Shown: piece by piece, positions 23,753-38,524 of the stretch
Layout of the letters: each line of letters opens with the position of its first letter
How positions within the stretch are numbered: the first letter of the stretch is position 1
Source of the DNA: Haloglomus salinum
GTDB lineage: Archaea > Halobacteriota > Halobacteria > Halobacteriales > Haloarculaceae
DNA: 64,000 nt
NCBI RefSeq assembly: GCF_024298825.1
Contig: NZ_CP101153.1
Location: forward strand, 806,001-870,000
Reading direction: 5' to 3'
The notes under the pieces: model-generated
The model's input: the letters and a program-made list of their open reading frames with translations, nothing else
Database searches by the model: none
What the model was told of the DNA's origin: nothing
Made by a program: the position numbers and the translations under genes

Positions 23753-24039
23753 GTCGCCCCCGGTCGCTCGCCGGGCGCTGACCCTGGTGATTTGCCCCGT
23801 ATACCTTTGTAGGGGTAATGATATACCTCAATCATCATGGGGGAGTGGACCCACCGAACTGGGCACCAGTTCGCTCTCGAGAACGAGCGCCGGCGGCTGA
23901 CTAGCAGGAGCGCGACCCGGGCGACACCGGCAGCGCTCCGACACCGTTTCCACACACGGCCGGTAACCGAGCGACCCCGGCACTCCCGGTGGCTCCCGGT
24001 TCGCCCGCGCTCGCGGGGTCGGGGGAGCAGTGGTCCGCG

Positions 24040-26025
<1,986 letters not shown>

Positions 26026-31869: not shown

Positions 31870-32057
31870 GTCCACTGTTTGGGGTTCCAGCGTAGAAGGG
31901 GGTTGCGGTCCCGACGCTCAGAGCCGGTTCTCCGCGGATTCGGGTGCCCGCTGTCGATTGGCCGAATCACCCAGAAGACCGACAGTTCTCCGATTGGCAC
32001 GCCCGCTGGCGGTTCGGTCCGTACCGTCGCGTGGCACCCGTCCCCACCGGACCGAGG

Positions 32058-32065
32058 CCTTTAAC
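32058..32065 (+). promoter_or_regulatory. TATA-like box of valS
   Basis: CCTTTAAC lies 26-33 bases before the ATG at 32091 and fits a leaderless promoter. Confidence 0.5.
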
Positions 32066-32090
32066 CGCGAACCGGGCACACCTCACGGTA

Positions 32091-34760
32091 ATGCCCAGCG
32101 GGAGCTACGACCCCGACGCGGTCGAACCGGCCTGGCAGGACCGGTGGGTCGAGACCGACACCTACGCCTACGAGTCGGTCGACGACCCGGACCTGTCGTT
32201 CAGTATCGACACGCCACCGCCGACGGTTTCGGGCGACCTGCACTGGGGCCACGTCTACGGCGCCACCCTGCAGGACTTCGTCGCCCGGTTCCAGCGGATG
32301 GCCAACGGGGAGGTGTTCTTCCCCTTCGGCTACGACGACAACGGCATCGCCAGTGAGCGACTCACGGAGGACGAACTCGGCATCGAGCACTCGAACTTCG
32401 AGCGCCGGGAGTTCCAGCGCAAGTGTCGCGAGGTCTGTGCCGAGTACGAGGCCGACTTCACGGAGAAGATGCAGGCGCTCGGTGTCTCCATCGACTGGGG
32501 CCACACCTACCAGACCATCGAGCCACGGGTCCAGCGCATCTCCCAGCGCTCCTTCATCGACCTCTACGAGCAGGGACGGGAGTACCGACGTCGCGCCCCG
32601 ACCATCTGGTGTCCGGACTGTGCGACCGCCATCTCGCAGGTCGAGACCGAGGACGACGAACGTGGGAGCCACTTCCACGACATCGAGTTCGACGTGGTCG
32701 ACTCCGACGAGGCGTTCACCATCTCCACCACCCGGCCGGAACTCCTGCCCGCCTGCGTCTCCGTCTTCGTCCACCCGGACGACGACGAGAACGAGCACCT
32801 CGTGGGCCAGCAGGCCCGCATCCCCCTCTTCGGTCAGGAGGCCCCCATCATCGAGGACGAGCGCGTCGACATGGAGACCGGCAGCGGGGTCGTGATGTGC
32901 TGTACCTTCGGCGACCAGACGGACATCGAGTGGTACCAGGCTCACGACCTCCCGCTCCGCATCGCCATCGACGAAACCGGCACGATGACCGAGCAGGCCG
33001 GCGAGTACGAGGGGATGGGCAGCGATGAGGCCCGCGAGGCCATCGTCGCGGACCTCGACGAGACGGGGGCGCTGCTGGACAAGCGCGCCATCACCCACAG
33101 CGTCAACGTCCACGAGCGGTGTGACACGCCCGTCGAGTTCCTCGTCACCGAGCAGTGGTACGTCGAGATCCTCGACAAGAAGGAGGAGTACCTGCAGGCC
33201 GGCCGCGAGATGGAGTGGTACCCGGAGAAGATGTTCACCCGGTACAAGCACTGGATCGAGGGGCTGGAGTGGGACTGGTGTATCTCGCGCCAGCGCTCCT
33301 CGGGTATCCCGTTCCCGGTCTGGTACTGCGAGTCCTGTGACGAGGCGGTCGTCGCCGACCGGGCCGACCTTCCGGTCGACCCGCTCTCGGACGAGCCGCC
33401 GGTCGACGCGTGCCCGGAGTGCGGCCACGACGAATTCGAGCCCGAGGACGACGTCTTCGACACCTGGGCCACCTCCTCGCTCACGCCGCTCATCAACGCC
33501 GGCTGGGCCGAGGGCGACGACGATCCAGACTCGGACGCGATGGCCCACCCCGAACTGTACCCGATGGACATGCGGCCCCAGGGCCACGACATCATCTCGT
33601 TCTGGTTGTTCCACACGGTCGTCAAGTGCTACGAGCACACCGGGGAGCCGCCGTTCGAGTCGGTGATGGTCAACGGGATGGTCCTCGACGAGAATCGCAA
33701 GAAGATGTCCAAATCCGTCGGCAACATCGTCGCGCCCGACGAGGTCTTCGAGAAGTACCCGGTCGACGCCGCGCGCTACTGGGCCGCCGGCTCCAGTGTC
33801 GGCGACGACCTGCCGTACAAGGAGAAGGGCATCGTCTCGGGCGAGCGCCTGCTCCAGAAGCTCTGGAACGCCTCCAAACTCGTCGACGAACTCGCGCCCG
33901 CCGACGAGGTGCCCGACGAGCAGCCCGAGCTGGCGGCGCTCGACGAGTGGCTGCTCGCCCGGCTGGACGAGGAAGCCGAGCGCGCCGCCGAGCACCTCGA
34001 GAACCGCGCGTTCTCCAAATATCGCGACTCCCTGCGCTCGTTCTTCTGGCACACGTTCTGCGACGACTACCTCGAGATCGCGAAGGGCCGCATCCGCGAG
34101 ACCGACGACTCCGGCGCCCGCTACACCCTCCGGACCGCCCACGAGCGCTTCCTGAAGCTGTTCGCGCCCGTCCTCTCGCACGTCACCGAGGAACTGTGGC
34201 ACGACATGTACGTCGACGCCGACCCGGTCGGGGCCGAGGACGCTGCCGCCGCGGATGGGGGTGAGGCCGTCGACTCCATCCACCGGACCGACTGGCCCGA
34301 ACCGCTCGGCCTCGACGCCGATATCGAGGGCGGCGAGCGCGCCCTGGAGGTCGTCTCGGCGCTCCGGAAGTACAAGTCCGAGCGCGACCTCGCGCTGAAC
34401 ACGGAACTGGCCCGGGTGCAGGTGTACGGCGAGGTCGCCGACTACGTCGACGACATCGCCCGCGCGATGCACGTCGAGACCCTCGACCTGCTGGACGATG
34501 CCCCCGAGGTCGAGACGGTCGTGACGGGCATCGACCTCGACTACTCGGTCGTCGGGCCGGAGTTCGGCGGCGACGTGCCGGACATCGAGGCCGCCATCGA
34601 GTCCGGGGAGTACGTCCTCGAGGGCGAGGGCGACGACGCGACGCTCATCGCCGGCGAGCACGAACTCACCGCCGACATGTTCGACGTGGAGACCGAGCGC
34701 CGCTACGACGGCACCGGCGACCTGCTGGAGACCGACGGCGCGGTCGTCATCGTGGGATAG
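32091..34760 (+). CDS. valS: Valyl-tRNA synthetase
   Basis: 889 residues from ATG 32091. It charges tRNA-Val. Class I motifs: HWGH (HIGH equivalent, in SGDLHWGHVYG near residue 46) and KKMSKSVGNIVAP near 540. The editing domain includes TISTTRPELLPACVSVFVHPDD, and a zinc-binding segment (CPDC; CESCDE; CPECGHDEFE) is visible. The C-terminal anticodon-binding part is shorter than in bacteria and ends ETDGAVVIVG. The last 16 codons are partly duplicated about 767 bases downstream (see the repeat entries), so this 3' end may have been exchanged. Confidence 0.95.
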   Translation: MPSGSYDPDAVEPAWQDRWVETDTYAYESVDDPDLSFSIDTPPPTVSGDLHWGHVYGATLQDFVARFQRMANGEVFFPFGYDDNGIASERLTEDELGIEHSNFERREFQRKCREVCAEYEADFTEKMQALGVSIDWGHTYQTIEPRVQRISQRSFIDLYEQGREYRRRAPTIWCPDCATAISQVETEDDERGSHFHDIEFDVVDSDEAFTISTTRPELLPACVSVFVHPDDDENEHLVGQQARIPLFGQEAPIIEDERVDMETGSGVVMCCTFGDQTDIEWYQAHDLPLRIAIDETGTMTEQAGEYEGMGSDEAREAIVADLDETGALLDKRAITHSVNVHERCDTPVEFLVTEQWYVEILDKKEEYLQAGREMEWYPEKMFTRYKHWIEGLEWDWCISRQRSSGIPFPVWYCESCDEAVVADRADLPVDPLSDEPPVDACPECGHDEFEPEDDVFDTWATSSLTPLINAGWAEGDDDPDSDAMAHPELYPMDMRPQGHDIISFWLFHTVVKCYEHTGEPPFESVMVNGMVLDENRKKMSKSVGNIVAPDEVFEKYPVDAARYWAAGSSVGDDLPYKEKGIVSGERLLQKLWNASKLVDELAPADEVPDEQPELAALDEWLLARLDEEAERAAEHLENRAFSKYRDSLRSFFWHTFCDDYLEIAKGRIRETDDSGARYTLRTAHERFLKLFAPVLSHVTEELWHDMYVDADPVGAEDAAAADGGEAVDSIHRTDWPEPLGLDADIEGGERALEVVSALRKYKSERDLALNTELARVQVYGEVADYVDDIARAMHVETLDLLDDAPEVETVVTGIDLDYSVVGPEFGGDVPDIEAAIESGEYVLEGEGDDATLIAGEHELTADMFDVETERRYDGTGDLLETDGAVVIVG
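34698..34745 (+). repeat. Left copy of a 48-base direct repeat: the valS 3' end
   Basis: These bases encode the valS C-terminus (RRYDGTGDLLETDGAV) and recur at 35465-35512 with 43 of 48 identities. Together the copies frame the Doc-family gene. Confidence 0.8.
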
Positions 34761-34783
34761 GGTCGCCCGGGAATCCAGAACCG

Positions 34784-35458
34784 ATGCCAGGGGAACCGGA
34801 GAACGACACCGGCGACATCGAGTATCCGACCGTCGACACCGTTCTGGTGCTTCACGAGACGATTATCGAGGGCGACGCGCGCTCGGAGCCCGGTGTTCGG
34901 AACGAGGGGGACATCGAGTACGCGCTCCAGCATATCGAACACGGGTCGTTCGGGGAGCGCCCCGGCTCGCTCCACGAGACGGCGTTCCAGTTGTTCCGGC
35001 TGCTGGTGTCGAACCACCCGTTCGTCGATGGGAACAAACGAACCGCGCTCCAGTCGACCGTCGTCCTCTACGAGCAGAACGGCCACGAACTCCGCTACGG
35101 TGCTGATATGGAGAGCTTCGTTCGGCTACTGGCACTCGACGAGCGACTGGTGCGCCCCGCACCGGCAGCCGAATACCTCTCGATGCGCGCGGTTCCCACC
35201 GGCTCGACGGACGGTGGTGACCCGGGTTCGGGCATGGCCTCGGCGGGGCGGTCGGAGGTGCCACCGGAACTCGTGGAGGAACTCCGGGACATCGAACACC
35301 TCCCCCGGGCCGACCTTCGCAGCCTCCGGGAGGACTGCGGCGTGACCTTCCGGGACCTGGTCGCCGTCGAGGAGCTCCGTCACCCGGTCCTGAAGGCGTT
35401 CGCCCGGGCGGACATCCGGGAACACCAGGACATCTACGACCGTCTCGCAGAGTCCTGA
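34784..35458 (+). CDS. Doc/Fic-family toxin-like protein with C-terminal extension
   Basis: 224 residues. The Doc/Fic core motif H-x-F-x-D-G-N-K-R is present as NHPFVDGNKRTALQ near residue 75, preceded by the helix LHETAFQLFRLLVS. Doc toxins modify translation factor EF-Tu; Fic relatives AMPylate proteins. Typical Doc is about 125 residues, so roughly the last 95 residues here are extra and carry no motif I recognise. No Phd-like antitoxin gene precedes it: only 23 bases separate it from valS. It may be inhibited by its own tail, or the cognate antitoxin may be elsewhere or lost. It lies within the valS duplication. Confidence 0.75.
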   Translation: MPGEPENDTGDIEYPTVDTVLVLHETIIEGDARSEPGVRNEGDIEYALQHIEHGSFGERPGSLHETAFQLFRLLVSNHPFVDGNKRTALQSTVVLYEQNGHELRYGADMESFVRLLALDERLVRPAPAAEYLSMRAVPTGSTDGGDPGSGMASAGRSEVPPELVEELRDIEHLPRADLRSLREDCGVTFRDLVAVEELRHPVLKAFARADIREHQDIYDRLAES

Positions 35459-35464
35459 GCGGGC

Positions 35465-35512
35465 CGCCGCTACGGCGGCAACGGCAACCGGCTGGAGACC
35501 GACGGCGCGATC
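35465..35512 (+). repeat. Right copy of the 48-base repeat: degenerate valS 3' end
   Basis: Matches valS 34698-34745 at 43 of 48 bases, in the same direction. It has no start or upstream domain, and its frame continues into unrelated sequence, so it is a remnant. Located seven bases after the Doc gene stop. Confidence 0.8.
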
Positions 35513-35524
35513 AGCAATTCCCCA

Positions 35525-38524
35525 TCAATCGTCCACGCTCATCGGTTCCGGTGACCGGCTTCGCGAGGCGCCGGTCCCGCCCCGGACCTCGTCGGGCCCG
35601 TAGCGCCGGGTCCACAGCACCAGCAGTGCGGGCAGCACCACGACCGCCCCGATGAACGAGTAGGCGATGGTGAGTGCCGTGATGATGCCGAACTGCTGGA
35701 GCGGCACGAGGATGGCGAACGCGAGCACGCCGACGCCGGCGATGTCGGTGATGGCCGAGCCCAGCATCGCGCCACCCGAGCCGAGCACGGCAGTTTCGAG
35801 CGCGGCGCCCATGTCGCCCTGAGCGTGGAGTTCCTGCATGTACCGCTCGGAGAGGTGGATGGCGTAGTCCACCCCGATACCGATGGTGAACGAGGTGATG
35901 AGCGCCGTCATCACGTTGAACGGGATATCAAGGACGAACATCGTCCCGAGAATCCACGCGAGGGCGAAGGCGATGGGCAACAGCGTGACCACACCGAGCG
36001 AGGGGTAGCCCTCAGTCCGGCGGTAGACGAGCATCAGGATGACCAGCACGATGCTCAGCGTGATGAGGAGGCCAGTGTTGACCGTCGAGAGGAGCTGCGC
36101 GGCGACGGCCTGGTTCTTGATTGGCTGGCCGGTCGGGACCGTCCGGAGGCCGTTCCCCTGCACCGGCGCGGAGGCGTTGCGCACGCGCTCGGTGATGGTG
36201 GACTCGGAGTAGGTGCCGTTGACGGGGACCTTCACCCGGAGCGCGACGTACTCGCCGTCCTCGCGGGCGACCATCGTCGGCGCGGCCGCCGGGGCGACCC
36301 GGTAGAGCGTGTCGTAGACCGCCTCGATGTTCCGGTCCGGGATGCCGTCGCCGTCGGTGTCGGCCTGTCGTTTGACCTGGGCGAACGTCTCGTTCCGGCT
36401 GGCGACCGTGTTCATCAGGCGGACCGGGGTCTGGGTCGCGTACGTCTCGTCGGGAAGCTGGAGGACGACGCCGGTGTCGTTGACGCGGTCGCCGGCCCGC
36501 TGGGCCCGGTCGAGGGCCGCGTCCTGTGTCACGTCACCCCTGATGACGTACTGGGTGAACGTTCCGTCGTAGATGAACCCCTCCTCCTCGACGTAGTCGA
36601 GGCTCGCCTGCGCGGTGTAGTTCGCGGGCTGGAACGCCGGCGGGAGGTCGTCGGCCCAGCCGGGCACGTCGCTGTCGTCGACGAGCAGGTCGTCCTGTTC
36701 GAACTGGTTGGAGACCTGGGTGGCGCCAGCGATGCCCGCGAACGTCGCCAGCAGGGCGACGCCGACGACGAGCCACGGCGTCCGGTGGGCGAAGGTGACG
36801 ATGGTCCCCAGCAGCGACTCGAAGCGGCCCTGCGTCCCGAACGCGGCCCGCCGGCGGTCGTGGCCGCGCGCCTCCAGGAACCGGTCGACCTCGACCTTCA
36901 GTGCGGGGATGAACGCACCGAAGACGACCAGCGCCGCGACGATACCGACCGCACTCACGACGCCGAACTCGCGGATGGGGCCGACGCCGCTCGTCAGGTT
37001 GGCGAGGAAGCCGGTCGCGGTCGTCAGCGTCACCAGCGCCAGCGCCGTCCCGACACCGGCCAGCCCGACCGTCATCGTGTCCGTGATGTCGTCGAGCGGC
37101 CCGCCGGTGGCGCCCGAGGGGCCACCGGGTGGGTCCGGGTCACGACCGCCGCCGGACGCGGTCCGGTCGGGCCCGGGCGAACCTTCGGCCGGTTCGTCGG
37201 GCGGATTAGATGTGTCGGCCGCGTCGGCCACGTCCTCAGGTTCGTCGTCCGGCCCCTCGTCAGGGTCACTGAAGGCGTCGTCGCCGAAGACGAAGCCGCC
37301 CGTCTCGTCCTCGGTGTCCTCGGTGTCCTCGGTGTCCTCGGTGTCGTCCACCTCGTCGTCCTCCGGGCGCCCACCGTCGGTCCGGGCGGTATCGCGCGCG
37401 CCACCGTCGGCGGCCGCGCCGCGGGACCGGGAGGCCGAGCGTCGGTCGGACTCGCCGCCCGTGTCGGGCGGGCGCTCCTCGCGGTGGCGCATGAAGACGT
37501 GGATGGCGTAGTCCACGGAGAGGCCCATCAGCAGGACTGGCACGGCGACGAACAGCTGGTTGAACGTGATGTCCATCCAGCCCATGAAGCCGAACGCCCA
37601 CGTCAGGACCATCCCGACCCCCAGCAGGCCGAGTGCGGCGTCCACGAGGTCCCGGTAGGCAAAGAGGAGGACGAGCACCATCAGCCCGAGTGCGAAGGGG
37701 CCGACGATGGTGAGGCTGTCGAGCGAGGACTGTCGTAGTTCGGCGTTGATGATGCCGTTCCCGACGATGACGGCGTCACGCGCCGGGGCCGAGAGCTCGT
37801 CCTCGGCGATGCGCTGGGCCGTGAGCTGTGCGGTGGTCAGGTTCTTCGGGTCGGTGTCCTCGTCGTGCGAGAGGACGATACCGGTCGCGGGGGCGGTCTT
37901 GCCGTTGCCCTCGTAGCTGAGCGGGACGAACGCGAAGCCGCCGCCGTCCGGCCAGGTGTGCTCGGGGTCCGACAGCACCTCGCCGATGGCGTAGGTGGTG
38001 TAGAGGCGGCGCTGATACTCCGAGATGTTCCGGAGGGCCTCCTTCTGTTCCGAGAGGGATGGCCGGGGCTCGATGTCCATCTGGTCGACCGGGACGCCCT
38101 GCTGGTCCTGGATGGCGATGATGGCCACGGCGTTGGCCATGGAGATGGGCCGTTGTTCGGCCACCAGCGTCCGGTTGACCGTCTCGTTGGCCAGCAGCCG
38201 CTCCTGGATGCGCAACACCGTGAGGTACCCCTCCTCGGTGAGGACGTTGCGCTCGGTGGCGCCGGCGGACTCGTTGGTGTTGCGGACGACGAGCAGCGAC
38301 TGCTCGACGCCGGCGACGGAGCCGGACATCTCCCGTTCGACGTAGCTGTCGGCGGCGGCGGGTTCGGTGCCGCCGCGGAACTGTTCGAGCGAGGTCGAGA
38401 GTTCGACCGACGGTGCCGCCGCGCCGAGCAGGAGCGTCGCGACGAGGATGGCGACGAGTGTGAGCCGACGCCGCTCGTCGACGAGGAGTCGTGCCACCTC
38501 GCGGGGGCGTTTCACGTGGACCAC
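35525..38524 (-). CDS. RND/MMPL-family exporter
   Basis: 999 residues from a GTG start (GTG 38515 is an alternative). About 12 helices: one near residue 25, an extracellular domain, five helices, then the same order again, as in HAE3/MMPL proteins. Helix-4-like segments contain the expected Gly-rich ...GLSVDYAIH and IGVDYAIHL motifs, one per half, which match the RND proton-relay D-Y. A roughly 110-residue acidic insert (DDVDDTEDTED type) in the middle cytoplasmic loop is unusual for the family. Likely exports hydrophobic or lipid substrates by proton exchange; the cargo is unknown. Confidence 0.88.
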   Translation of the reverse strand: MVHVKRPREVARLLVDERRRLTLVAILVATLLLGAAAPSVELSTSLEQFRGGTEPAAADSYVEREMSGSVAGVEQSLLVVRNTNESAGATERNVLTEEGYLTVLRIQERLLANETVNRTLVAEQRPISMANAVAIIAIQDQQGVPVDQMDIEPRPSLSEQKEALRNISEYQRRLYTTYAIGEVLSDPEHTWPDGGGFAFVPLSYEGNGKTAPATGIVLSHDEDTDPKNLTTAQLTAQRIAEDELSAPARDAVIVGNGIINAELRQSSLDSLTIVGPFALGLMVLVLLFAYRDLVDAALGLLGVGMVLTWAFGFMGWMDITFNQLFVAVPVLLMGLSVDYAIHVFMRHREERPPDTGGESDRRSASRSRGAAADGGARDTARTDGGRPEDDEVDDTEDTEDTEDTEDETGGFVFGDDAFSDPDEGPDDEPEDVADAADTSNPPDEPAEGSPGPDRTASGGGRDPDPPGGPSGATGGPLDDITDTMTVGLAGVGTALALVTLTTATGFLANLTSGVGPIREFGVVSAVGIVAALVVFGAFIPALKVEVDRFLEARGHDRRRAAFGTQGRFESLLGTIVTFAHRTPWLVVGVALLATFAGIAGATQVSNQFEQDDLLVDDSDVPGWADDLPPAFQPANYTAQASLDYVEEEGFIYDGTFTQYVIRGDVTQDAALDRAQRAGDRVNDTGVVLQLPDETYATQTPVRLMNTVASRNETFAQVKRQADTDGDGIPDRNIEAVYDTLYRVAPAAAPTMVAREDGEYVALRVKVPVNGTYSESTITERVRNASAPVQGNGLRTVPTGQPIKNQAVAAQLLSTVNTGLLITLSIVLVILMLVYRRTEGYPSLGVVTLLPIAFALAWILGTMFVLDIPFNVMTALITSFTIGIGVDYAIHLSERYMQELHAQGDMGAALETAVLGSGGAMLGSAITDIAGVGVLAFAILVPLQQFGIITALTIAYSFIGAVVVLPALLVLWTRRYGPDEVRGGTGASRSRSPEPMSVDD
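37307..37342. repeat. Four copies of a nine-base repeat (GTCCTCGGT)
   Basis: Perfect tandem copies encode the TED-TED-TED run of the acidic insert in the exporter. Slippage could vary its length between strains. Confidence 0.75.

Follow-up and report, generated by a model that had tools for sequence, protein, structure and literature searches.

How does a gene for a Doc-type protein come to lie between a valyl-tRNA synthetase gene and a second, shortened copy of that gene's own 3' end, and what does such a gene encode? The arrangement occurs in Haloglomus salinum (contig NZ_CP101153.1), within the 64-kb window, the whole stretch of DNA that was analysed here. An earlier note on this DNA proposed that an element had integrated into the 3' end of valS. 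For comparison we used four Haloglomus genomes, one per species: that of H. salinum, H. halophilum ZY41 (G002), and two further congeners (G001 and G003). In all four, valS neighbours a convergent exporter gene, which serves as the conserved right flank, and the 3' end of valS is intact and alignable throughout. The features of the locus are collected in Table 1. The valS reading frame opens mechanically at a GTG, while homology would place the start about 49 codons further on (MPSGSYDPDAVEPAWQDRW); the real start is probably an ATG near 32091.

Table 1. Features of the valS-doc-exporter locus (positions in the 64-kb window).
Feature	Position	Strand	Basis or remark
valS, valyl-tRNA synthetase	31944..34760	+	Pfam PF00133 (E 5e-89), PF08264; mechanical ORF start
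Left repeat copy	34698..34745	+	Within valS coding sequence; stops 15 nt before gene end
valS-doc spacer	34761..34783	+	23 nt, separating the stop of valS from the start of doc; lacks a visible AT-rich, promoter-like stretch
doc, predicted 224-aa Doc-family toxin fused to partner	34784..35458	+	PF02661, TIGR01550, structure and profile matches
Doc catalytic motif HPFVDGNKR, residues 78-86, intact	35015..35041	+	Invariant columns H78, F80, D82, G83, N84, K85, R86
Fused partner, residues 151-224	35234..35455	+	Opens at internal ATG; separate ORF downstream of doc in relatives
Conserved partner motif EELRHPVLKAFARADIREHQDIYDRLAE	35369..35452	+	HMM alignment
Right repeat copy, probable decayed stub or copy of valS 3' end	35465..35512	+	43/48 identical to left copy
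Short exporter-side flank	35513..35524	+	About 8 nt align with G003, not with G001 or G002; weak
RND/MMPL-like exporter gene	35525..38524	-	Convergent with valS; named by sequence features only

The earlier note described the last 48 bases of valS as recurring 767 bases downstream, with the Doc gene as the only gene between the copies. The direct repeat is there, with 43 of 48 positions identical, and doc is indeed alone between its two copies, but the copied stretch ends 15 nt before the end of valS. These final 15 nt, which include the stop codon (GTCATCGTGGGATAG), are absent from the right copy, and with them the last four sense codons. The right copy starts 6 nt past the doc stop codon and ends 12 nt short of the exporter stop codon, filling the whole junction; both of its ends are cut inside valS. 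A repeat that recurred elsewhere as a general motif had been named as telling against the proposal, and this possibility was rejected: in a search of the H. salinum genome with the right copy, the valS end was the sole strong match (E 7e-12), followed by a next best of 0.08. Elsewhere in the 64-kb window, direct repeats of equal quality lying no more than 5 kb apart occur just in a single 297-bp tandem array (24.2-25.1 kb). The expectation for such a repeat is below 1e-3 even under generous base matching, and a chance origin is excluded. As a separate observation, a surface-protein ORF at 23989-26025 carries four near-identical 297-bp (99-aa) PKD-like repeats with TPTP linkers between them.

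The gene between the copies encodes a protein that matches the Fic/Doc family PF02661 (2.4e-8; 35.2 against a cut-off of 24) and the model TIGR01550 (8.6e-15; 55 bits against a curated cut-off of 38.65). In the catalytic motif, HxFx(D/N)GNKR, the residues H, F, D, G, N, K, and R are invariant over 10 haloarchaeal and 14 viral-contig homologues. The structural model has the Doc fold over residues ~11-140, with a mean pLDDT of 80-95 for most blocks, and its top matches are P1 Doc chains from Doc-Phd structures (3k33, 3dd7, and 3kh2; TMt up to 0.87, probability 1.00, E ~5e-3). Profile matches also point to P1 Doc, which provides the closest solved structures by both fold and profile. Based on the curated models, the motif, and the predicted fold, the 224-aa protein is assigned to the Doc family, and it would be expected to be toxic. 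The Doc fold and the HxFxDGNKR motif are what it shares with the type II Phd-Doc system of P1 (TIGR01550). The gene arrangement is different, as no Phd gene lies upstream at this locus. In haloarchaea a small helical partner is instead encoded downstream of doc, and in H. salinum that partner is fused to the C-terminus of the toxin, leaving one fused ORF in place of the two-gene operon of a type II toxin-antitoxin system. The GC3 of doc is 83%, compared with 92-93% in both flanking genes, and a search of haloarchaeal genomes, 146 from the family and 391 from the class, gave a closest Doc relative that shares 53% identity across the Doc domain. The lower GC3 and the lack of a close relative point to a foreign origin for doc. 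Plasmid, phage, and viral-contig sources were considered and yielded only distant relatives.

Resemblance to most Doc relatives stops near residue 140, and the tail beyond it is accounted for by gene context. When the tail alone was used as a protein query against 391 genomes it found only itself, and the partner was recovered from the Doc loci instead. Counting the H. salinum locus, the partner is present at 54 of 57 haloarchaeal Doc loci. Everywhere else that it was found it is a separate ORF of 39-68 aa directly downstream of doc; H. salinum is the one locus of the 57 in which it is joined in frame to the Doc C-terminus. The tail is 34% identical over 53 residues to the partner at locus L097 (E 1.5e-8), and a partner HMM singles out the H. 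salinum Doc ORF among 899 ORFs in the window (E 2e-8). Partners end in a motif like DRDEHRDIYDALADE, of the general form (D/E)xHxDIYxxLA (loci L002, L097, L098, L100, L110, L112, and L114-L117), and the H. salinum tail bears the same motif. These sequence matches show the H. salinum gene to be a Doc gene and its partner fused into a single ORF of 224 aa. In several relatives doc and partner lie in one reading frame, so loss of a stop codon would suffice to fuse them. The internal ATG of the H. salinum gene begins MASAG..., much as the separate partners begin (MAS.. or MAT..), and a short product from this start is therefore possible. A different arrangement is seen at loci L029, L065, L098, and L099, where the partner HMM match overlaps the last part of doc in a different frame (by about 11 nt; in L029, by 70 nt), which suggests overlapping, translationally coupled genes. 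A single-sequence structure model was uninformative.

None of the Pfam or NCBIfam models covers the four partners that were scanned. The L097 partner resembles the C-terminal half (positions 36-73 of 74) of TIGR02609, the doc_partner family of putative addiction module antidotes, with an E of 0.018 that lies far under the cut-off; the N-terminal part of that family is missing from the haloarchaeal partner. Genes of the TIGR02609 family stand in the reverse of the haloarchaeal doc-then-partner order. At five plasmid loci the separate pair is annotated as a Doc toxin and a hypothetical protein; one two-gene pair of this kind is that of H. mediterranei pHME132. Conserved pairing with a known toxin usually marks a small gene as an antitoxin (PMC2701414), and this pairing rule, along with the weak TIGR02609 match, makes it likely that the haloarchaeal partner is an unrecognised Doc antidote. 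An archaeal Doc with a small protein antidote is known from Sulfolobus, where the antidote was shown experimentally; there the toxin and antidote genes are convergent and separate, and the antidote is assigned to arCOG10132 (PMC11065993). For the H. salinum tail, we infer from the pairing that it would neutralise the toxin to which it is attached.

Alternatively, the tail may be a substrate-binding or localisation extension and no antidote, in which case the fused protein would either act as a free toxin or be no more than a harmless relic. Such a role would be compatible with any account of the repeat, and it agrees with the low model confidence for the tail (pLDDT 45-60), with the distance between the partner and known doc partners, and with an antidote role that is deduced from pairing. 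The persistence of the partner beside Doc at nearly every locus argues against it, however, as does the usual antitoxin role of small genes kept next to known toxins, and with the Doc motif intact an unguarded toxin would be costly. We regard an extension of this kind as the less probable reading of the tail, though one of real weight.

The history of the insertion can be followed in the gap between valS and the exporter, which has four different contents in the four Haloglomus genomes between the same conserved flanks. Sequence identity among them ends at the valS stop codon and returns at the exporter end. In H. salinum the gap is taken up by doc and the valS-end copy. In G003 it is 117 bp long and has no gene, an empty site in which a single valS end is followed by the exporter, as had been predicted for a relative lacking doc. 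In H. halophilum it is 694 bp long with an unrelated 190-aa ORF (L032 2131-2703) that belongs to no family above cut-off, and in G001 it spans 1190 bp, with a PAS-domain ORF (L034 2138-3154) that is read from the other strand. The valS-end copy is present only in H. salinum among the four, and no valS copy was found with the G001 and G002 inserts at the same place. Conservation of the Doc gene and the second repeat in all relatives, which had been named as counting against the proposed insertion, is thus contradicted by their absence from three congeners. Because the gap contents differ among the four congeners and the G003 site is empty, the Doc gene is an insertion specific to the H. salinum lineage that replaced the old gap.

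On the exporter side, matches to the H. salinum sequence begin at 35517 in G003 and at 35525 in G001 and G002. The region 35513-35524 agrees with G003 at 9 of 16 positions in register, yet at 11 of 16 at another offset, and a retained piece of the old flank, which would amount to some 8-12 nt, was accordingly treated as weak. The 3' side of valS was also considered as a general hot spot. Among four congener pairs in other genera, the DNA 3' of valS is conserved in two (g6 and g9), weakly conserved in g2, and not conserved in g8; since variability downstream is not universal, a general hot spot was rejected.

The right copy itself retains a record of its source. Codon 15 of the repeat is GCG both in the H. 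salinum valS and in the right copy, and GCC in G001, G002, and G003, a silent difference private to H. salinum. The two copies differ at five positions, all of them first or second codon positions and four of them private to the right copy, whereas functional valS genes differ from each other mostly at third positions. The shared GCG and the position pattern indicate that the right copy came from the resident valS and changed without coding constraint, which bears out the earlier view that it is the decayed one, and the same two features argue against a foreign valS as its source. The copy thus derives from the valS of the H. salinum lineage and was made after the split from H. halophilum. Divergence from H. 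halophilum at four-fold sites is 13%; against this, the five changes in 48 are compatible with neutral change since the split and with an event that took place close to it or later.

We favour, with a probability of roughly 60%, the view that the right copy is the scar of an imprecise recombination that inserted a foreign doc. A foreign Doc-type toxin gene would have entered the gap between the convergent valS and exporter genes and replaced the old intergenic sequence, by illegitimate recombination that was possibly homology-assisted. The right copy would have arisen in this way after the H. halophilum split and then decayed as noncoding DNA, since it codes for nothing. In keeping with a recombination scar, resident sequence has been replaced and one or both ends of the insertion are non-homologous. 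There are two routes by which the 48-nt piece may have formed. It may be a displaced stub of the resident valS end, later trimmed by deletion, a route that needs an extra deletion of about 115 nt to remove the valS end and the old gap. Alternatively, sealing of the junction may have used the adjacent valS end as a template for a short copied tract, a route that needs one event only and is equally possible. Stubs are left behind insertions made by homology-facilitated illegitimate recombination in the T6SS immunity arrays of V. cholerae (PMC5361080), and bacteria commonly carry small variable segments that have been put down to illegitimate recombination (PMC2884548). In both cases, as here, a conserved gene is followed by a newly inserted gene and, further downstream, by a displaced 3' piece; those scars are bacterial, while the H. 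salinum piece is archaeal, only 48 nt long, and cut at both ends. Among the haloarchaea, Haloferax performs microhomology end joining (PMC7776575). No clear microhomology was seen at the junctions beyond a few G+C-rich bases, and no donor molecule was found that is homologous at one end and unrelated at the other.

A local tandem duplication would also give a direct-orientation copy of the resident valS 767 nt downstream, and it requires no valS-carrying donor. Here doc would already have stood behind valS, the valS end and doc would have been duplicated together, and a deletion running from the second doc up to the exporter would have left the 48 nt. This takes two events, the second a deletion whose endpoint would have to fall within a few bases of the exporter stop codon, and neither the start of a second doc nor the 15 missing valS nucleotides have left a trace. 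It also leaves the arrival of doc unexplained, and we consider it unlikely.

Still less probable is the integration proposed in the earlier note. A site-specific element with its attachment site at the valS 3' end would have rebuilt valS on the left, displaced the old end to the right, and later lost its integrase and most of its other DNA, with doc remaining. Attachment sites of archaeal integrases do occur within protein-coding genes (PMC8371274), and the locus resembles these in having foreign DNA bounded by a direct repeat of a gene end. It differs from them in lacking an integrase, a complete displaced end, and recurrence at valS. In a search restricted to tyrosine recombinases (PF00589), the H. 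salinum genome gave nine matches, the nearest about 165 kb away, so that a lost recombinase or one of another type is conceivable. A displaced complete valS end with its old flank is absent: the copy lacks 15 nt at the end of valS, and about 100 nt of the gap have gone. Only 23 nt separate doc from valS and 6 nt from the right copy, with no trace of further element genes. Other insertions at valS ends, suggested as a check, were not seen: the inserts of the congeners lie at the same place without the repeat, and at 19 further valS loci from haloarchaea there is no second valS end. No relevant paper on valS as an integration site was found in the literature. With no tyrosine recombinase nearby, no complete displaced end with old flank, and no reuse of the site, the element reading is unsupported, and the recombination that the note had named as its alternative fits better with a copy cut on both sides and no integrase nearby. 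Selection on the right copy, either for a hairpin terminator or for a regulatory role at the 3' end of doc mRNA, was rejected as very improbable: the copy has GCCGCCGCTACGGCGGC, made more perfect by one change, but the fold predicted for 35450-35530 does not surpass those of shuffled sequences (z -0.5), the right copy is no better than the left relative to shuffles, and the case is a single instance.

As a case of mobile DNA the locus is ordinary, an indel-prone gap that probably received a gene by imprecise insertion and kept a scar of it, although it provides a datable example of a small accessory gene entering a haloarchaeal chromosome without an integrase. The fused Doc-partner gene is more interesting than the repeat or the insertion. 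Since no promoter-like AT-rich stretch is visible in the 23-nt spacer, doc is likely read through from the valS transcript, and we infer that the two are co-transcribed. It is conceivable, though we put this forward as a doubtful suggestion, that the gene is a single-chain toxin-antidote in which the partner has become the C-terminal domain of Doc and, inserted without a promoter behind valS, follows the transcription of a tRNA synthetase in its level. If true, the protein would work as a translation-arrest switch that carries its own guard and is coupled to charging capacity. The fusion may also be more useful than the repeat, as it makes an antidote role of the partner a testable prediction and is itself a single-chain construct ready for use. 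Haloarchaeal Doc toxins have a conserved small partner downstream, annotated as hypothetical in the five plasmid records, and in H. salinum the two are naturally fused.
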